From: Paracoccus sp. DMF-8
Lineage (GTDB): Bacteria > Pseudomonadota > Alphaproteobacteria > Rhodobacterales > Rhodobacteraceae
Direction of reading: 5' to 3'
Assembly (NCBI RefSeq): GCF_029309835.1
Contig: NZ_JARJHL010000002.1
Span: 1 to 64,000, forward strand
DNA length: 64,000 bases
The notes under the pieces were generated by a model that was not told where the DNA came from, searched no databases, and saw only the letters and a list, made by a program, of their open reading frames with translations. Each line of letters starts with the position of its first letter. The first letter of the stretch is position 1. Position numbers and translations under genes: made by a program. This document shows positions 1,266 through 12,886 of this stretch, in pieces.

Positions 1266-3038
1266 CTACAGCACCAGGATGCTGCGGCTGTCATAGACCG
1301 AGCGGCCGGCATTGACGTCGCGCAGGAGCGCCCGGCCGAGGGCGTTGCAGATCGCGACAATGCCGTCGATGCGGTCCGAGGAGCGTTCCTTGTCCGGCTT
1401 GATATTGCCGGCCGGATCATGGCGCACGGCGACATTCGAGGCATTCCAGCGCAGCACCGGATGGCCGCCATGCCAAAGCATGCGCGAGACCGAGAGCCGC
1501 TCCAGTTCCGCCGTCGGTGCCGCCATGCTCAAAAAGCCCTGCCCAAATTGCACGAGGTTCAGCCCCTCATCCTGTAGATGCTGGACGATCTCACCGGCGA
1601 AGGTGCGGTCGTAAGAGAGCTCGCGCAGATCGTAGCGCCCCGCGAGTGCGATGATCTCCGCCTCGATGAAGCCAAAATCGGTGGCATTGCCGGGGGTGGC
1701 CACAAGGAAGCCCTGGTTGCGCCAGGTATCGTAGGGCACCCGGTCGCGCTTGCCGCGGCGCAGGATGTCCTCCTCCGGCACCCAGAAACGGGGCAGCACG
1801 ATCCATTTCTCGGCGAGAACGCCGAGCGCAGGATCCAGCGTCGGCGGAAACAGCAGCACGAATGCCGAGAGATCGTTGACCCGGGCCAGGTCCAGCCCGC
1901 CATAGCACTCCCGGCCCAACAGCTTTTGTTCCAGATCATCCAGCCCGACGCGGATATCTCGCCAATCAGCCCCGTCACCCGGCCCGCCCTCGGCCCAGAC
2001 GCCCATGTCGAGCCAGCGGGTGACCTGTTCGGTCCATTCATTCAGCCGCAGCCGCCGGATGGCGTTCTGCTGCGCCGGCATCTCGCGAGCCTCGTCGATC
2101 TGGCGCTTCAGGTCGTCCGGCTTCACCGTCACGCCAAGACTCGGATTGGCCTTCACCCAGACCGCAGGATCAGTCCAGTCATCGCCCGCGTCGATGGTGG
2201 CGATATAGGCAAACCAGCTATCGGCCGTCTCATGCGGCACAGACCCTTCCAGCGCCTTGACCGAGAACTCGTGATGCTGGCGACAGACCGAATGGCGGTC
2301 ATGGCCGGCGGTGGTGATCTCGACGATCAGCGGCTGGCGCCGGGCACCGGTGGCGGTGTTGAGCTTCTGGATGATCTCCGGTCCGGGATGTTCATGCACC
2401 TCGTCCACGGCGGCCAGATGCACGTTGAGCCCGTCCATCTTGCTGGCATCGGCCGAGAGCGGCCGGAACCACGACGCGGTGGGCAGCACCGCGAGGTTGT
2501 TCACGGTGCGCGTCACCCGCGCTGCCAGCGCCGGGCTGGAAGCGACCATGCGCTCGGCCTCGCCGAACACGATGCGCGCCTGATCGCGAGTGGTGGCCGC
2601 GGCATAGACATGCGCGCCGGCCTCGCCATCGGCGATCAGCGCGTAGAGCGCGATGCCTGCGAGCAGCGCGGATTTGCCATTCTTGCGCGCCACCTCGACG
2701 TAAGCTGTGCGGAACCGCCTGAGTCCATCGGCGCGTTTCCAGCCAAAGACGGATCCGACCGCGAAGGCCTGCCACGGCTGCAGCACAAAGGGCTGGCCGG
2801 CCCATTCCCCGGTCGAGTGCCGCAGGTGGCCGAAAAACTCGATCGCGTGCAGCGCGGCGGCGCGGTCCCAGGAGAGGCCACGGGTCTTGCCGGTCTTCAG
2901 GTCCTCCAGATGCCGTGCGCAGGCCAGCTTCACCAGCCGGCCCGCGGTGATCTTGCCGCCGGTGACTGCCTTTGCATAGGCGGTGACCGGGCATGCCGGT
3001 GCCTTTCGCCCCGCACCGGATTTACGCGCTGCTGCCAC
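1266..3038 (-). CDS. Phage terminase large subunit (TerL)
   Basis: This 590-aa protein is the packaging motor ATPase and nuclease that cuts concatemeric DNA and drives it into proheads. The Walker A region is ARKNGKS at about residues 117-123 and the Walker B region is VDEVHEH at about 211-217. A further motif, TTAGHDRHSV, follows at about 240. The C-terminal half carries the nuclease-like region (YGGLDLARVNDLSAFVLLFP). The length is normal for the family. It starts with GTG inside the end of terS (17-base overlap) and is followed by the portal gene, the classic terS-terL-portal order. Confidence 0.95.
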   Translation of the reverse strand: MAAARKSGAGRKAPACPVTAYAKAVTGGKITAGRLVKLACARHLEDLKTGKTRGLSWDRAAALHAIEFFGHLRHSTGEWAGQPFVLQPWQAFAVGSVFGWKRADGLRRFRTAYVEVARKNGKSALLAGIALYALIADGEAGAHVYAAATTRDQARIVFGEAERMVASSPALAARVTRTVNNLAVLPTASWFRPLSADASKMDGLNVHLAAVDEVHEHPGPEIIQKLNTATGARRQPLIVEITTAGHDRHSVCRQHHEFSVKALEGSVPHETADSWFAYIATIDAGDDWTDPAVWVKANPSLGVTVKPDDLKRQIDEAREMPAQQNAIRRLRLNEWTEQVTRWLDMGVWAEGGPGDGADWRDIRVGLDDLEQKLLGRECYGGLDLARVNDLSAFVLLFPPTLDPALGVLAEKWIVLPRFWVPEEDILRRGKRDRVPYDTWRNQGFLVATPGNATDFGFIEAEIIALAGRYDLRELSYDRTFAGEIVQHLQDEGLNLVQFGQGFLSMAAPTAELERLSVSRMLWHGGHPVLRWNASNVAVRHDPAGNIKPDKERSSDRIDGIVAICNALGRALLRDVNAGRSVYDSRSILVL

Positions 3039-5751: not shown

Positions 5752-6132
5752 TCACTGCGCATTCAGGCGCGCGGCGATCTTGGTCAGCGCCAGCTGCCAG
5801 CGCCGCCACGCGGTCGTGCGGTCGCACCCCAGCTCGCCGCTGATCTGCTTCCACGGCACGCGGGCCGCGCGCGACCAGACCAATTTGCGCTCCGCCTCCT
5901 CGATCCAGAGCACCCAGTCGAAGGTCTGCTCAAGCCGGGTGATCGCGGCGGCCGAGGGCCAGACGCGCATCGGCTGCGGTTCCATCGCCGCAATCTCGCG
6001 CTGACTGCGCAGGGCCTGTGGCCAGGCGCTGAAATAACCCTGCACCTTGACCGGCGGCAGCTTGCGCAGGGTGCGGAACGCCTCGGCGAATTGGTCGGCA
6101 ACATCGTCCGCGGTCCAGTCCCGATCAGCCAT
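5752..6132 (-). CDS. DUF6362 family phage HTH protein
   Basis: The protein has 126 aa from the ATG at 6132. That start is preferred over the GTG at 6138 because GGAGGG lies eight bases before the ATG. The C-terminal half reads WSRAARVPWKQISGELGCDR followed by TTAWRRWQLALTKIAARLN, a helix-turn-helix with a trailing basic helix that matches DUF6362. The family is common in alphaproteobacterial prophages, just before the packaging genes. A transcription-regulator role (late-gene control) is inferred from the HTH and the position. It overlaps the next upstream ORF by 8 bases. Confidence 0.75.
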   Translation of the reverse strand: MADRDWTADDVADQFAEAFRTLRKLPPVKVQGYFSAWPQALRSQREIAAMEPQPMRVWPSAAAITRLEQTFDWVLWIEEAERKLVWSRAARVPWKQISGELGCDRTTAWRRWQLALTKIAARLNAQ

Positions 6133-6349
6133 GGCCACGCCCTCCCTCGCCGGCGCGGGGGCCGTAGAGCTTGCGACCCAGTTGCGCGATCATCTCGCGC
6201 TCGGGCCAGGTCAGCCGCGGGTCGTCCACGCTGACCGCCAGCAGACCCATCTCCTGCCAGCCATCACGCTTGACCTCATCGGGGCTGCGCCGCGTGCCGC
6301 CGTAGCCGGGGGGCGTGTAACGCATCGTCGTCAGTTTCATTCGGGCCAT
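6125..6349 (-). CDS. Small hypothetical phage protein
   Basis: The protein has 74 aa from the ATG at 6349, which has AGGAG six bases upstream. An in-frame ATG at 6355 touches that site. The sequence contains RYTPPGYGGTRRSPDEVKRD and then DDPRLTWPEREMIAQLGRKLYG. No transmembrane segment or known motif is visible. It overlaps the DUF6362 start, so the two are probably translated together. I recognise the style from Rhodobacterales prophages but know no function. Confidence 0.6.
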   Translation of the reverse strand: MARMKLTTMRYTPPGYGGTRRSPDEVKRDGWQEMGLLAVSVDDPRLTWPEREMIAQLGRKLYGPRAGEGGRGHG

Positions 6350-6355
6350 CGTCAT

Positions 6356-6700
6356 CTCCTGTCGTTCTGGCCGCAGTGGTCGGGGGAGGCAGAGACGAAA
6401 GAGAACGGCGGACCGCGGGCACGGACGTCACGGATGGGGGGCTCGGCCCCGAGGCCGGCCCTCCCATACGTAGTATGGGGGGTCCCGTTGTTCGTCCTCA
6501 AAAGCAAGTAAGTCTCTGTAGTAAAACGGGAAAAGAGGACGAACAGAGGTCGAACAAGAGGACGAACATGTTCGTCCTCGTCCTGCCATAATACATTGAT
6601 TTTGCAGGATTGAGGACGAACAACGGGGGAGGACGAACATGTTTGTCCTGAGGTCGAACAAGAAATCCGGCAGGACGAACAACCGCGGTCGAGGACGATT
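6356..6700. other. 345-bp non-coding stretch carrying the repeat array
   Basis: No convincing gene is present here; the frames that stay open are low-complexity readings of the repeats. The stretch holds a 17-base palindrome (CCCATAC, GTA, GTATGGG at 6463-6479) and then the GAGGACGAACA repeat cluster. It lies between two leftward phage ORFs, directly after the truncated replication-type ORF. Confidence 0.7.
6489..6681. repeat. Cluster of about ten 11-bp repeats (GAGGACGAACA and variants)
   Basis: Plus-orientation copies of GAGGACGAACA are at 6535-6545, 6558-6568, 6612-6622 and 6629-6639. One-base variants are at 6546-6556 and 6650-6660 (GAGGTCGAACA) and at 6671-6681 (first base C). Exact inverted copies are at 6489-6499 and 6569-6579, and a variant inverted copy is at 6640-6650. 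Copies 6558-6579 form a perfect 22-base palindrome, and 6629-6650 an imperfect one. Partial units flank the cluster at 6691-6698 and 6711-6719. Spacing is irregular and nothing separates units in a CRISPR-like way. Iterons of a replication origin or a multi-site operator are the likeliest meanings. Confidence 0.85.
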
Positions 6701-7171
6701 TCACGCATGGTCGTCCTCCGGATCGGGCCAGTTGCAGGGGTCATCCAGCTCCATGCAGAGGCCGTTGGCGGGCGACTTGTAGTGGCTGGCAACGACCGGT
6801 TTGCCGGTCGACAGCACCTCGCCGGACTCCGGATCGACCTGCGCCTCGCTGCCGAACACCATATCGCCCTCGTCGAGATCGACGACCAGTGCCTGCATCT
6901 GGACGACATGCTCGGCGCGGGCTTCGCCACGCTGCGCCACCGTGCCGGGGATGACATAGATGGCTCGGCCGATGGGCGCGGCAGCCTCGGCACAGCCCGC
7001 GATGGTCGCGGCCGCACCCCCATCGGCCGGCAACCAGCGCAGATCACTCGGCGAGGGCGGCGTCACGCCCTTATCGGGCAGGCCGCGCAAGGGGATCAGC
7101 CCGTCGCACCAGGAGAAGACGACATCGAGAAACAGCGCGATCTGCGCCGGATCGACCGCCGGCACGCTCAT
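6701..7171 (-). CDS. Hypothetical phage protein, resembles the N-terminus of a larger replication/primase-type protein
   Basis: This 156-aa ORF contains ALFLDVVFSWCDGLIPLRGL, then AIYVIPGTVAQRGEARAEHV followed by VQMQALVVDLDEGD. As I recall, this pattern opens much longer prophage replication proteins, where the VVDLD strand is part of the polymerase/primase core. Here the frame closes soon after, with a divergent tail ending NWPDPEDDHA. It is therefore either a short relative or a truncated remnant. It ends just before the repeat array, which fits a replication locus. Overlap with the upstream ORF is 4 bases (ATGA). The functional assignment is tentative. Confidence 0.55.
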   Translation of the reverse strand: MSVPAVDPAQIALFLDVVFSWCDGLIPLRGLPDKGVTPPSPSDLRWLPADGGAAATIAGCAEAAAPIGRAIYVIPGTVAQRGEARAEHVVQMQALVVDLDEGDMVFGSEAQVDPESGEVLSTGKPVVASHYKSPANGLCMELDDPCNWPDPEDDHA

Positions 7172-7368
7172 TGTAGCCGCCCTTCGCCGGGCTCCAGATC
7201 GGCGGGCTGGATATAGACCGCGAAGAGGTCCTCGCCATCCTCATGCTGGCCGGCTGCTTCGAAGAAGTAATACCGATCTGGCATCACCAGCTCGGTCAGC
7301 TCCCAGCGGCGATAATAGCCGGGAAGGCGCTTCAGGAGATCAGGCGGCGGAATGGGCGGCAGTGTCAT
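7168..7368 (-). CDS. Small hypothetical phage protein
   Basis: This 66-aa ORF begins MTLPPIPPPDLLKRLPGYYR and ends PADLEPGEGRLQ. It is soluble, with many aromatic residues in the middle (WELTELVMPDRYYFFEAAGQ). It overlaps the next gene by ATGA, so it is the first gene of the leftward group. No clear Shine-Dalgarno is seen before its ATG. Function unknown. Confidence 0.55.
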   Translation of the reverse strand: MTLPPIPPPDLLKRLPGYYRRWELTELVMPDRYYFFEAAGQHEDGEDLFAVYIQPADLEPGEGRLQ

Positions 7369-7434
7369 CGATCGGGCTCGTGAACAGGGGCTTCACCTGT
7401 TTAAAAGCCAATCCCGAAGGCCGATCGGGACATT

Positions 7435-7477
7435 GAAGTCGCGATCAAATATGATATCTATAAATAAAATTGATATC
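7435..7477 (+). promoter_or_regulatory. Promoter and paired GATATC operator of the toxin-antitoxin operon
   Basis: The -35 box TTGAAG (7435-7440) and the -10 box TATAAA (7459-7464) are 18 bases apart. Two GATATC palindromes, at 7453-7458 and 7472-7477, flank the -10 box with 19 bases between starts. Ribbon-helix-helix antitoxins commonly bind such paired palindromes and repress their own operon, so this is the probable FitA/VapB-type operator. The patch is strikingly AT rich against the surrounding DNA. Confidence 0.6.
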
Positions 7478-7491
7478 GAGCGAGCTTCATC

Positions 7492-7731
7492 ATGGCCCAG
7501 ATCGTCGTACGCCAGATCCCGGAAGAGGTGCATCGCGCGCTGAAGGCGCAGGCCGCCGCGCATGGTCGCAGCGCCGAGGCCGAGTTGCGCGAGATCATTG
7601 CCCGCGCGGTGCTGCCGCAGTCGCGCCCGCGCGCGGGTGATCTGATGCGCAGTATCTGGTCCGGCGCCGAGACGGACGACCTTTCGGTCGAACGCGACCG
7701 GACGCCCGCGAAGCCGGCCGGTTTCGAATGA
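7492..7731 (+). CDS. FitA/VapB-type antitoxin (ribbon-helix-helix)
   Basis: This 79-aa protein opens MAQIVVRQIPEEVHRALKAQ and AAAHGRSAEAELREIIARAV, the Arc/FitA ribbon-helix-helix fold that dimerises and binds DNA. The C-terminal 35 residues are extended and probably wrap the toxin active site. It binds and silences the PIN toxin encoded next and represses the operon together with it. The stop overlaps the toxin start (ATGA at 7728-7731), which couples their translation. The paired GATATC sites upstream are the likely operator. Confidence 0.9.
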   Translation: MAQIVVRQIPEEVHRALKAQAAAHGRSAEAELREIIARAVLPQSRPRAGDLMRSIWSGAETDDLSVERDRTPAKPAGFE

Positions 7732-8162
7732 TCATCCTCGACACCAATGTCGTCTCGGAGACGATGAAGCCGGCGCCAGAGCCGCGGGTGATCGACTGGC
7801 TCAACCGGCAAGAGCTGACCACCCTGCACCTGACCACCATCAGCCTGGCCGAGTTGCGGTTCGGCATTGCATGCCTGGACGCTGGGCGGCGTCGGGACGA
7901 TCTTGACGCGCGGCTCGAGCAGATGCTGGCCGAGGTATTTCCGGCACGTATCCTGTCGTTCGACGAGGCCGCTGCCAGTGCCTTCGGAGTATTGATGGCA
8001 ACGGCGCGCCGGCAGGGACAGGCCGTGAGTTTTGCCGATGGCGCGATTGCTGCCATTGCCGCGGCACAGGGCTATCCCGTCGCCAGCCGCGACACCGCGC
8101 CCTTCGCCGCCATGGGCGTGGAGGTGGTGGATCCGTGGCACGAGGCGGCTCAAGGCCGGTAA
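7728..8162 (+). CDS. FitB/VapC-type PIN-domain toxin ribonuclease
   Basis: This 144-aa protein is a PIN domain with the acidic metal site in order: D5 in MIILDTNVVSE, E43 in SLAELRFG, D103 in SFADGAIAAIA, and a further D in SRDTAPF. These residues coordinate magnesium for RNA cleavage. FitB/VapC toxins cut tRNA or rRNA when freed from the antitoxin. The gene overlaps the end of the convergent sigma-like gene by 13 bases. In a mobile element it could act in stability or phage exclusion; neither role is shown here. Confidence 0.9.
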   Translation: MIILDTNVVSETMKPAPEPRVIDWLNRQELTTLHLTTISLAELRFGIACLDAGRRRDDLDARLEQMLAEVFPARILSFDEAAASAFGVLMATARRQGQAVSFADGAIAAIAAAQGYPVASRDTAPFAAMGVEVVDPWHEAAQGR

Positions 8163-8866
8163 TGGCCTCGCAGGCGCGCAGCGGCGCGTTGATAACGTTT
8201 CCGCGCCGCCCCATCGGACAGGCCGAGCACCATACCCATTTCGATCTGGCTGGCACCGTCCACCGCGACGCCAAGGACCAGATCGGCATCTGACCCGATT
8301 ACCGCCGACAGATCAGCACGCAATTCCGCCCGCATCCGGGCCCGATCCGCCCATGACGGCGGCGCGGCAATCCAGTCGGGTTCTACCTCCGCGCAAGATT
8401 GCTGGCGGTCGATCTCGCGTCGATGGGCGCGCAACAGATCGCGTTCGGTGTTCATCAGCACGGTGGCGGCGATATTGGTGACTCGACCGAGATCAAGGGT
8501 CCGGATGATTTCCGTGCTGCGGGCCAGGAGGTCGGAGCTGATCTCGTCAGCAGTGCCGACACGACGACGCAGGCAGCGGTTGCGGATCGCATCGAGCCCC
8601 GGCCACAGGGAAAGCAGCATGACGTGCAGGGCCAATCCCGCGGGACGATCGCGGCCTTGTGACCTGCGCACGAGGGCGGCGAGAATGGCGTTTCGCTCGT
8701 CGAAAGCGAGATGCCCATGATGCAGGGCGCCGAGCAGTCCGACGATGTCAGCGTAAGGCCGAAGCGACGGTTCGGCCGACCGGACGGCACGATAATCGCG
8801 TTGAGATTGCAGGGTCGACGACGAACGGGCGAGATCCTCGCGGATCGCGAACCAGGAGAAAGACAC
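8150..8866 (-). CDS. Sigma-70-like (ECF-type) phage regulatory protein
   Basis: This 238-aa protein begins with GTG at 8866, with GGAAGG about ten bases upstream. Two regions recall sigma factors. The middle (LHVMLLSLWPGLDAIRNRCLRRR, then TEIIRTLDLGRVTNIAATVL) resembles region 2. The end (QIEMGMVLGLSDGAARKRYQ followed by RAAARLRGHY) is a region-4-like helix-turn-helix. Rhodobacterales prophages carry such proteins, usually annotated as sigma-factor-like. It could switch host RNA polymerase to element promoters, but no target is visible. It runs opposite to the toxin-antitoxin genes. Confidence 0.55.
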   Translation of the reverse strand: MSFSWFAIREDLARSSSTLQSQRDYRAVRSAEPSLRPYADIVGLLGALHHGHLAFDERNAILAALVRRSQGRDRPAGLALHVMLLSLWPGLDAIRNRCLRRRVGTADEISSDLLARSTEIIRTLDLGRVTNIAATVLMNTERDLLRAHRREIDRQQSCAEVEPDWIAAPPSWADRARMRAELRADLSAVIGSDADLVLGVAVDGASQIEMGMVLGLSDGAARKRYQRAAARLRGHYRP

Positions 8867-9290: not shown

Positions 9291-11471
9291 TCAGGTCGCG
9301 ATTTCCCACAAGCCGCGTTTGGGCGAGCGCAGGAAGTCGGCCTTCAGCTTGCTCCACAAGGACTGACCAAAGATGTTGCCGAGTGATTGGTTGCCAATGC
9401 CAGCAACCATGTCGTCTGTTTTCATGGGTGTCGGATACGCCTGCACCAGACGATCGATGACCATCACACGCTGGGCACCGACGATATCGATAGTGCCTTT
9501 TCCGGGGACACTCAGCACACCGGCGCCGTTGCCCGACTTGTGAAACTCCACGGCAGCGCCACCTTGGGCCAGAGATCGGTTCCGACGAAACGCCGATATG
9601 AGGCTCGTCATGTCTACGGCAATTTCGGTTGCCTCCAGCAGGATATGGTCGGCAAGTCTCGCGAGCACATTTGCTGCCACGCAGGAGCCGGCGGCGTCCC
9701 CCGCCTGCAGGACGAGCCCGATCCCCTGCTTGTCCCGCGCGCGAAGCTCGGTATCGATGGCGGCGCGGACCCGCTCGTCCTCGAGTCTGCGGGCGAGATA
9801 GAGCGGCACGTCACTTCCGTCGATTTCGAGATCGCCGAGCGCGATGAGGTCGGGCCGGATGTTCTCCATCGCTGCGATGTCCAGCGCCTTGCCAAGCTGC
9901 TCGCGCAGGTGGCTGGCGACCCAACCGTCTCGGATCCGATAGACACGGTAGCGCTCCGGCAGCGCGGCCGACGATGACTGGCCATCGGTCGAGTATAGCT
10001 CGAGTCCCTCAGGACGCTCCACGACCTTTGCCACATGTTCCGCAAAATCGTCTTCATCGTCGATCAGGTCGTCACCCTCCCAACCTGAGGGGACCAGGAA
10101 CCCGAGATCGAGCAGGGTTTTGACGTCTACCCCCCGCTCGTGAAGCCAGGCACCGTTTATGCGGTCAGACCCCAGGTTCCACAAAGCCAGCAACGCAGGC
10201 AGCACCGCCATGCTCTCTCTGGGCGTCGGTGCGCGACCATCACGCAATATGCCCCAGTGGCGGAGCAAGCGGTGACCGAGGACGCGCTCGAACGGATCAT
10301 GCAGGCTCAGCAGGCTCGTAGTGTTTCGATCCGTCAGGGTGAAGTCCAGCGTACGCTCGCCGTCCACGCCCCCCCGCCGGTACTGAACAGCGATTTCCAC
10401 GAACCGGATCGCGAGAGCATTGCGAAATATCCTCTCAAGTCCCGGCTGATCGCTGATCAGCTGGCCGATGTCCTCATCCAGGGACGTCGAGACCGACAGC
10501 CTGTTGGCGAGATTTCCGATACTGATGTCCACGCGGATCACGCGAGCTCGCAGGATGCTGACATCGTCAAATTCGGGCAGTTCAAGATCGAAGCCGTGGA
10601 AGAACCGTGCGATGTCATAGGCTTGAAAATCGATGGGCTGGCTCGATAGCTCCTGCTCGAGAATTTTGGTGATGAAGCTCTCGGCGGCATCGTGGCGGAG
10701 ACGTCGTGTTCCCGCCCGCACATGTACCCGTCCCGTCGCGGGCGAATGCACGATCATGATCTCGCCGGGCGGGCGGAAATATGTCGTCGTGCGCTGCCCG
10801 TCGTCGTGGAGTTCTCGAAAGCTGGCGGGCCGCTCGGGGTGGATCACCAGGTACATGACCTCGGTTGGTTCTTCGCCTTCTGCAGGAATTTCAAACCGGT
10901 CGACTTCATAGCCATCGCCCCGATCGAGTCTGGTGCGCAGATCGTCCAGCATCCCTTTCAAAGCAGAAGCTTCGACATCCGTTGAGACGCCTTCATCCGG
11001 CTCGACCATGAACGTTTGATAATGGCGGTCGTAACGGCGGTAGAGTCGCAAATGCAGGGTGTTCTCGGCGGCCTCGAACAGCATCGGCTCGTTCAGATAC
11101 GCCCAGAAACTGCGTGCCAGCGAGTCTCGTTGGATATCAAATTCGTGCTTCCGTTCGGGTGCCAATTTCGTGCGGACCAAACCGTCGAGCGCGAATTCGC
11201 CGCGATCTGAAGAAACAGTGAAGATTCGCGCGGCTTCGGTTTCAAGAGAGGACAAATTGTCCTTCTGCTGTTCGCGCAACATGGCTGCCGCAGGCACATC
11301 TCCATCGGCGCCATCGGGTTCGAAATGGTAATCTGCCAACCATGTCAGCTTGTCGAAGACACGCATTCGCAGGAATGCGGCAATCATCGAGGGCTCGGCA
11401 TCGTCGAACAGCCGCGACAGGTTGGGACAGGATTTGGCCGGCGCACGAACCACGTGTACCTCCGTGATCAA
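9291..11471 (-). CDS. Large hypothetical protein of unknown function with C-terminal winged-helix-like end
   Basis: I do not recognise this 726-aa protein. It is soluble and acidic with no signal peptide, membrane segment, or obvious nuclease, ATPase or methylase motif. Residues about 1-330 are mixed alpha/beta. Residues about 395-520 are largely helical (LLSLHDPFERVLGHRLLRHW). The last 55 residues (VIDRLVQAYPTPMKTDDMVA, then GNIFGQSLWSKLKADFLRSP) look like a winged helix. Base composition seems less GC rich than the neighbours, which suggests recent transfer. It stands alone on the minus strand between a zinc-ribbon gene and a decayed recombinase-type cassette, a position where phages often carry defence or exclusion cargo. 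That role is inference only. Confidence 0.6.
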   Translation of the reverse strand: MITEVHVVRAPAKSCPNLSRLFDDAEPSMIAAFLRMRVFDKLTWLADYHFEPDGADGDVPAAAMLREQQKDNLSSLETEAARIFTVSSDRGEFALDGLVRTKLAPERKHEFDIQRDSLARSFWAYLNEPMLFEAAENTLHLRLYRRYDRHYQTFMVEPDEGVSTDVEASALKGMLDDLRTRLDRGDGYEVDRFEIPAEGEEPTEVMYLVIHPERPASFRELHDDGQRTTTYFRPPGEIMIVHSPATGRVHVRAGTRRLRHDAAESFITKILEQELSSQPIDFQAYDIARFFHGFDLELPEFDDVSILRARVIRVDISIGNLANRLSVSTSLDEDIGQLISDQPGLERIFRNALAIRFVEIAVQYRRGGVDGERTLDFTLTDRNTTSLLSLHDPFERVLGHRLLRHWGILRDGRAPTPRESMAVLPALLALWNLGSDRINGAWLHERGVDVKTLLDLGFLVPSGWEGDDLIDDEDDFAEHVAKVVERPEGLELYSTDGQSSSAALPERYRVYRIRDGWVASHLREQLGKALDIAAMENIRPDLIALGDLEIDGSDVPLYLARRLEDERVRAAIDTELRARDKQGIGLVLQAGDAAGSCVAANVLARLADHILLEATEIAVDMTSLISAFRRNRSLAQGGAAVEFHKSGNGAGVLSVPGKGTIDIVGAQRVMVIDRLVQAYPTPMKTDDMVAGIGNQSLGNIFGQSLWSKLKADFLRSPKRGLWEIAT

Positions 11472-12794: not shown

Positions 12795-12886
12795 TGGCGG
12801 AAGCGGTGGGATTCGAACCCACGGTGGAGTCTGCCCCCACGTCTGGTTTTCAAGACCGGAGCATTAAACCGCTCGGCCACTCCTCC
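12795..12886 (-). tRNA. tRNA-Ser (anticodon TGA)
   Basis: Read on the minus strand, the RNA starts GGAGGAGTGGCCGAGCGGTT, has the anticodon loop CTTGAAA (anticodon TGA, for UCA codons), a long variable arm typical of serine tRNAs, the TpsiC arm GGTTCGAATCC, and an encoded CCA. The D-stem, anticodon stem and TpsiC stem pair well. The acceptor stem is imperfect: 5' GGAGGAG faces 3' CGCTTCC, giving one A-G mismatch and one G-T wobble. The phage-like element begins immediately after the CCA. Confidence 0.95.

Follow-up and report, generated by a model that had tools for sequence, protein, structure and literature searches.

A probable iteron-type replication origin beside an internally deleted rep gene in a Paracoccus prophage

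The question addressed here is what is served by a dense cluster of 11-bp repeats located next to a short open reading frame in Paracoccus sp. DMF-8. The stretch of DNA analyzed, referred to as the window, comprises bases 1–64000 of contig C2 of a 4.05 Mb genome. An earlier note on this DNA had left two options, a replication origin of the element or a cooperative operator of a new regulator. Origin is favored by our results, and operator is retained only as a possible additional role. The array is very probably an iteron-type replication origin of a Rhodobacterales prophage family, read by the winged helix of the initiator Rep, bent by IHF and resembling the origins of P4 and PICIs.

The repeat array and its surroundings

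The first ~12.6 kb of the window resemble a prophage truncated where the contig begins; a tRNA-Ser gene (12795–12886) adjoins it. In minus-strand order, the presumed direction of transcription, a 726-aa protein (9291–11471, minus strand), whose sole match was phrog_37634, a phage family of unknown function, is followed by a sigma-region-4-like protein (8150–8866, minus strand), small genes, the ORF at 6701–7171 and the array. Beyond the array come a small conserved phage gene downstream of the candidate origin (6125–6355, minus strand; phrog_19772), a DUF6362 HTH protein upstream of the packaging genes (5752–6138, minus strand; phrog_6836), an HNH nuclease, a ParB/methylase protein and the large terminase TerL (1266–3038). 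The DUF6362 protein was used as a synteny marker for finding relatives.

Some further features of this region were recorded. A protein similar in size to the 726-aa one occupies the corresponding place in the related locus L011 (1690–3879). A FitAB-like toxin–antitoxin pair (ribbon-helix-helix antitoxin and PIN toxin) is encoded on the opposite strand of the prophage early region (7492–8162, plus strand), and the same PIN protein is found at the same place in L011 (5010–5444). Stretches 88% and 86% identical to the 3′ end region of the tRNA-Ser gene occur at C5:29448–29510 and C10:483074–483135, possibly representing other serine tRNAs or attachment sites.

About ten copies of the repeat in 193 bases, in both orientations, with one perfect and one imperfect 22-base palindrome, had been described; all of this was confirmed, and an eleventh site was added. 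Ten GAGGACGAACA-type sites lie within 6489–6681 (six exact, three with one mismatch and one with two), and the whole array of 11 copies of the 11-bp site covers 6489–6718, made up of two sets, an inverted copy at one end and a copy lying apart. The set adjoining rep (6612–6681) consists of sites starting at 6612 (+, exact), 6629 (+, exact), 6640 (−, two mismatches), 6650 (+, one mismatch) and 6671 (+, one mismatch), with the imperfect palindrome at 6629–6650. The second set (6535–6579) is formed by sites at 6535 (+, exact), 6546 (+, one mismatch), 6558 (+, exact) and 6569 (−, exact), and holds the perfect 22-bp palindrome (6558–6579). The terminal inverted iteron (6489–6499, minus strand) is exact, and the outlying site (6708–6718, minus strand, one mismatch) falls inside the final codons of the rep remnant described below.

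The array is too conserved for chance, as had been supposed: one 250-bp span holds ten of its sites with at most one mismatch (6640 excluded, 6708 included), compared to at most one such site per 250 bp in the rest of the 64-kb window and a maximum of one in 30 Markov shuffles. The whole genome contains eight exact copies of GAGGACGAACA, six of them in the array. Assembly duplication, which would have undermined the original observation, is unlikely because the array recurs in L011, L014 and L015, with identical site positions relative to the stop codon, and in eight more loci from other contigs or genomes, with 9–11 sites each.

Three other identities were considered and rejected. A CRISPR array, already judged incompatible with so irregular an arrangement, would have regular direct repeats with unique spacers, whereas the sites here abut or are irregularly spaced and point both ways. 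The alphaproteobacterial LexA box has the form GAAC-N7-GAAC; one such spacing is readable by eye (6541–6555) in an array built of 11-bp sites in both orientations. A Mu-like operator or enhancer was dropped, as the scanned window proteins included no transposase family and a terminase is present.

The iteron sets are separated by an AT-richer gap. It contains a perfect IHF consensus (AATCAATGTATTA; 6589–6601, minus strand), the only perfect match in 64 kb to WATCAANNNNTTR, the consensus as printed in the available part of PMC7581858. A second AT-richer gap (6500–6534, ~0.62 AT) precedes the terminal inverted site and may be an unwinding region. The AT fractions of the two gaps are 0.59 and 0.62, compared to 0.33 in the last 40 bases of the gene.

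Rep and its arrays in related prophages

That the array directly follows a replication-type ORF held true as far as position is concerned, since it adjoins the ORF at 6701–7171; this ORF is not an intact gene. Its product (P0002, 156 aa, minus strand) is an internal-deletion remnant, made up of approximately residues 1–105 (the primase N-terminus) and 689–741 of a ~741-aa initiator, fused in frame at a junction at 6861–6862 with a 2-bp overlap. Judged by the length difference to the L011 Rep, 1,755 bp (585 codons) are missing. Full-length relatives are present in L011 and in L134 (genome G023, same genus); in the latter the match extends over all 741 residues in an unbroken alignment, with an A-type array beside the gene. 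P0002 alone gave no match in phage records.

As this in-frame loss of 585 codons takes both the helicase and the winged helix from the window Rep, the putative origin is orphaned, its cis part (iterons and IHF consensus) being intact and its initiator broken. By itself the window element would be unable to fire this origin, its initiator being deleted. No intact A-type reader was found in this genome (84.5% complete), and an A-like helical part of the winged helix exists there in an interrupted gene on C5. A different internal deletion was observed in L009 (6001–7591) and L090 (5864–7454), where Rep lacks residues 344–548 (helicase) in frame and the B-type array and winged helix are kept; these two deletions are perhaps one event.

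Relatives were collected from viral contigs by means of the adjacent ORF product (18 loci) and from genome contigs by means of the DUF6362 protein (261, from which the 80 best were taken further; their record titles point mostly to Rhodobacterales). In these relatives the ORF of the window corresponds to a protein of ~741 aa with an N-terminal part, a helicase domain (AAA_25 Pfam match, residues 349–522) and a C-terminal region. The array test covered 60 regions: 58 of 98 loci (L009–L106) with a full-length Rep match, the window, and a second copy on contig C5 of the same genome. Left out were L009, L036 and L090 (Rep in two pieces), 13 loci matching in the N-terminal part only, five with a VapE-type replicase and 19 without either replicase.

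The co-occurrence of clusters with the adjacent ORF, proposed earlier as a check, was found almost throughout. In 59 of 60 regions 3′ of Rep a dense array exceeded all 60 shuffles, compared to one of 345 control windows elsewhere in the same loci, placing clustered short repeats beside their cognate initiator gene. The sole failing region, that of L022, was misplaced because its translated Rep ends early; eight copies lie in the last stretch of that contig. L009 and L090 hold six array sites each, and L036 holds five.

The particular 11-bp motif of the window stood up to the search only in part, being present in L011, L014 and L015 and representing one of about eleven motif types in this slot. 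The others include TGTCCGACTT, GATGACAAAG, TGCGGAACTT, CCGAAACTGC and CCTAACTCAT, as well as CGCAATCTGG, CCTTCCTCAT, CTTCGTCCTC, CTTCGACTTC and TCTGACTTAT. The types, A to K, are our own grouping, and 34 of the 60 regions belong to a single one. The orientation order ++−++, gap, −++ is common to types A, E, G and I, with positions shifted by some bases.

The eight further loci mentioned above came from a search with the palindrome only, which returned six viral contigs (L011, L014 and L015 among them) and five of 394 genomes of the family, including that of the window. Rep is included in six of the eight loci; the C-termini of these six Reps are 74–95% identical to type A and 58–68% identical to types B, F and I, the types compared. 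The two loci lacking Rep are ends of short contigs of G208.

A perfect IHF consensus was present in 50 of the 60 regions (0.3 expected), always on the rep strand, and in none of the 345 controls. By our count, at least one perfect match occurs in eight of the eleven types, mostly in the gap that follows the first iteron set, in the second gap in type E and after the last site in type K. The ten regions without one are five of type B, one each of types G, H and J, the misplaced L022 and C5; all eight B, G, H and J regions have a match within one mismatch, and L022 and C5 have none even at one mismatch. Seven of the eight new A-type loci also carry the perfect consensus. The AT fraction of the gaps over 19 regions was 0.47–0.68, modest in several types, and L088 has no gap longer than 15 bp. 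Several plasmid origins are assisted by IHF, and pSC101 requires it, according to the available part of PMC4980987.

Outside the tested regions the pattern was less uniform. In the 13 loci with Rep related in the N-terminal part only, no array exceeded the shuffles in the scanned stretch, and eight of them hold four copies of one 9-mer. Among the 19 loci without either replicase, five of the 11 scanned had 4–6 copies, compared to a shuffle maximum of three. In L074, L080, L083, L100 and L105, the slot is taken by an unrelated replicase of the VapE/Toprim type. All five have 3′ arrays above the shuffles (motifs such as TGTCCCACTT and TGTGAACCTC; those of L080 and L100 are similar), and the perfect IHF consensus is absent from all five. 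Homologues from Eleftheria, mu1/6 and ctKR88 showed no array above the shuffles.

Motif type and the winged helix of Rep

The AlphaFold model of the L011 Rep was of middling confidence (pLDDT 69.6, pTM 0.36). Its well-predicted N-terminus matched, in Foldseek, the AEP domain of cyanophage S-2L PrimPol and the RSF1010 primase RepB′, and a weaker part matched the RSF1010 helicase RepA; 3h20 was returned at E 3.6e-5 and 1olo at E 1.1e-3. PDB sequence searches with the whole Rep and with two alignments gave nothing useful.

Modeled alone, the C-terminal domain (pLDDT 78.9, pTM 0.70) consists of three helices, the third corresponding to Rep residues 647–660, and a hairpin. With VIA-align, seven of the ten best rows superposed 65–76 residues at 2.0–3.0 Å onto winged helices, with Z up to 7.0, values of 6–7 being common for such small domains; some of these seven chains were identified as winged helices by title, and the others we take to be such. 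Foldseek with this domain alone gave no match at E ≤ 0.001, and P4 alpha was not among the 50 VIA-align matches listed. On the strength of the model, the C-terminus of Rep looks like a winged helix.

The relation between motif and protein was determined for 57 of the 58 Reps, dereplicated to 43; the window, whose winged helix is deleted, and C5 stood outside this set. In all 577 pairs with different motifs, the winged helix (residues 601–690) was at most 77% identical, with some of these pairs reaching 98% over residues 1–345. The 326 same-motif pairs averaged 97.5% over residues 601–690; ten fell under 80%, six of them A versus I, whose motifs are near-identical, and four B versus L088. Motif sharing correlated with the winged helix given residues 1–345 (partial correlation 0.81; 0 of 2000 permutations), compared to 0.11 with residues 1–345 given the winged helix (171 of 2000 permutations). 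Among pairs 50–60% identical over residues 1–345, the ten sharing a motif (58–72% in the winged helix) overlap the 331 that do not (46–73%).

Recombination has shuffled Rep, and natural domain swaps are the result. L011 and L010 are 99–100% identical over residues 1–250 and 60% over 641–690, and their motifs differ; L011 and L014, at 74–75% over residues 1–250 and 98–100% over 601–690, share a motif. L016 and L017 are 96–97% identical up to residue 530 and 60% over 641–690, again with different motifs. In L009, L090, L036 and L022, where Rep is in pieces or cut in translation, the winged helix is 95–100% identical to the type expected from the array. Positions fixed within types and differing between them include 648, where the third helix begins, and 670–672 and 676–677 in the wing.

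One case is discordant. The second prophage of the same genome (L114 5580–8150, on C5) has a frameshifted Rep followed by an E-type array (CCGAAACTG, six sites, above the shuffles), and the helical part of its winged helix is 91% identical to type A (64 residues), the wing being closest to type B (78%, 23 residues). As far as these sequences go, C5 argues against a strict match of reader and array; the decayed gene may have recombined away from its array, or the match may be looser than proposed.

Overall, motif type nearly always goes with the winged helix of Rep rather than with the remainder of the protein. This co-variation suggests that Rep reads the array, and would not by itself make the array an origin. 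Together with the winged-helix-like model, and with C5 as the one discordant case, it lends indirect support to the idea that Rep may bind the repeats through its own winged helix.

Competing readings and known systems

From what was computed, namely the presence, position and variety of the arrays, the co-variation of motif and winged helix, the IHF consensus and the deletion, we infer a course of binding, bending, melting and replication. Rep would combine a RepB′-like AEP primase, a helicase like RepA of RSF1010 and a C-terminal winged helix in one chain encoded directly upstream of the array. In both sets, the winged helix would bind 10–11-bp iterons matching its type, whether single or paired head to head; IHF would bend the gap between them and bring the sets together; the RepA-like helicase would open the AT-richer gaps, and the primase would then start synthesis. 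Each lineage would have its own iteron spelling, fitted to its own winged helix. The origin option is supported by the location of the arrays 3′ of Rep, the two sets around an AT-richer gap, the usual IHF consensus and a motif that changes in step with the winged helix.

Were the array mainly an operator, through which the winged helix of Rep or another regulator controls the packaging operon or rep, the origin would lie elsewhere. Its position between the early genes and the DUF6362/HNH/methylase/terminase block would suit this role, as would the head-to-head palindromes, which are typical of operators, and the IHF consensus, as IHF sites occur in regulatory regions too. The co-varying reader, however, is a primase–helicase, and a simple scan of 6100–7500, a weak test, found sigma-70-like sites only at 7427–7479 and none in or beside the array. 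Two iteron sets round an AT-rich region directly 3′ of the initiator are, moreover, the layout of PICI origins in the available part of PMC6092414, and we consider a mainly regulatory array unlikely. Somewhat less probable still is that the array serves copy control or incompatibility, or acts as a decoy, by titrating Rep, while the DNA melts at some other place. In many plasmids the initiator is titrated by iterons, and P4 has a cis region, crr, that is distinct from ori. Against such a role, the AT-richer gaps and the IHF consensus lie inside the array itself, and a scan for other arrays (top four exact 9-mers per locus, at least four in 350 bp) yielded nothing outside the slot beyond 4-copy 9-mers, GCCGACGCC and CGGGGTCCA among them, and one 5-copy 9-mer in L092; such a scan would miss a diverged second array.

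It was also considered whether co-variation of winged helix and motif reflects physical linkage alone, the array and the 3′ end of rep recombining together. The two lie within a few hundred bases and joint exchanges are evident, and the C5 prophage indicates that array and winged helix are separable. However, within types 0.47 of the columns are conserved in the tail, the segment that links winged helix and array and lies nearer the latter, compared to 0.82–0.86 in the winged helix. Within-type differences in the winged helix are mostly synonymous: L011 and L015 differ there by 14 synonymous and two nonsynonymous changes, compared to five and eight, respectively, in the tail. The iterons are likewise conserved while the spacers drift, with three of 126 site positions varying among four A-type arrays versus 20 of 101 in spacers (Fisher p 2e-5). 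Judged by these sequence patterns, linkage alone would not easily account for the co-variation, and we regard it as very unlikely.

The proposed origin can be compared with several known systems. In SaPIs and Gram-negative PICIs (pri-rep-ori), the origin lies immediately 3′ of the initiator gene, with two iteron sets flanking an AT-rich region, as here (PMC6092414, available part). That text states that no other known bacterial replicon has this organization; contrary to the claimed uniqueness, the present prophage family appears to share it. Unlike PICIs, the window element has its own large terminase, the hosts are mostly Alphaproteobacteria, Rep has an AEP primase and a RepA-type helicase, and the IHF consensus lies inside the array. 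PICIs have no large terminase of their own and depend on a helper phage, and the identification of the window element as a PICI was rejected in view of TerL at 1266–3038.

P4 alpha, from a satellite phage, resembles Rep in having primase, helicase and winged helix in one chain and repeats at the origin. The helicase class of P4 alpha is different, that of Rep being RepA/RecA-like. Its primase is of the Toprim type, in contrast to the AEP primase of Rep, and its winged helix binds the origin repeats (PMC4234260, available part). The same part of this source describes RSF1010 as coupling iteron recognition, helicase and primase. The predicted primase and helicase domains of Rep match the RepB′ and RepA structures, and both an AEP primase of RepB′ kind and a hexameric helicase of RepA kind are recognizable at fold level. 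The iterons of the RSF1010 oriV are direct and about 20 bp long, whereas the sites here are 10–11 bp long and occur in both orientations; Rep is one fused protein in place of the three (RepA, RepB′ and RepC), with no separate RepC and no sequence match to RepC seen in Rep. In pRN1 ORF904 and phage BIP-1, AEP primase, helicase and winged helix are fused and the origin lies directly 3′ of the gene (PMC4234260, available part), as in Rep; they differ from it by an SF3 helicase and by a large stem-loop in place of iterons.

In a literature search made mostly without subscription papers, we recognized no description of this array or Rep family, and the available part of a Paracoccus virome paper (PMC6536676) contains none of the words "iteron", "primase" and "helicase". 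The general kind of system is known; what is new lies in the matching of winged-helix types to iteron types, in the IHF core and in the combination of a fused RSF1010-like initiator with a PICI-like origin.

On the origin reading, the puzzling repeat cluster beside a short hypothetical ORF is accounted for: the prophage would have kept its origin intact while its initiator broke down. Origins of the PICI/P4 style would also occur in a widespread alphaproteobacterial prophage family, whose marker protein has 261 relatives in genome contigs. About eleven natural reader/iteron pairs, with domain swaps on one chassis, could allow a recognition code to be derived. A wider reading, speculative and on balance rather improbable, is that Rhodobacterales prophages swap a specificity cassette (winged helix plus iterons round an IHF-bent core) on a shared primase–helicase, creating compatibility groups among related prophages sharing a cell. 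Orphan origins would then persist as parasites or decoys that a superinfecting phage of like type fires with its Rep, or that titrate this Rep.

Wolbachia phage WO (WOVitA1) encodes helicase and C-terminal parts related to Rep (33–54% identity over parts). In the available part of one WO paper (PMC9203015), "origin of replication" denotes that of the Wolbachia chromosome. Five WO loci were scanned; in four, whose rep homologues are either short or lack annotation, there was no array like those described above. In WOVitA1 (L116 6884–7093), an 11-copy AAGATGGCAA array scored 23, against 14 at most in the shuffles. It starts where the annotated ATPase gene ends and has, at 6981 in its gap, a perfect IHF consensus. 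This array is a candidate origin of WOVitA1, to be taken as a lead rather than a result.
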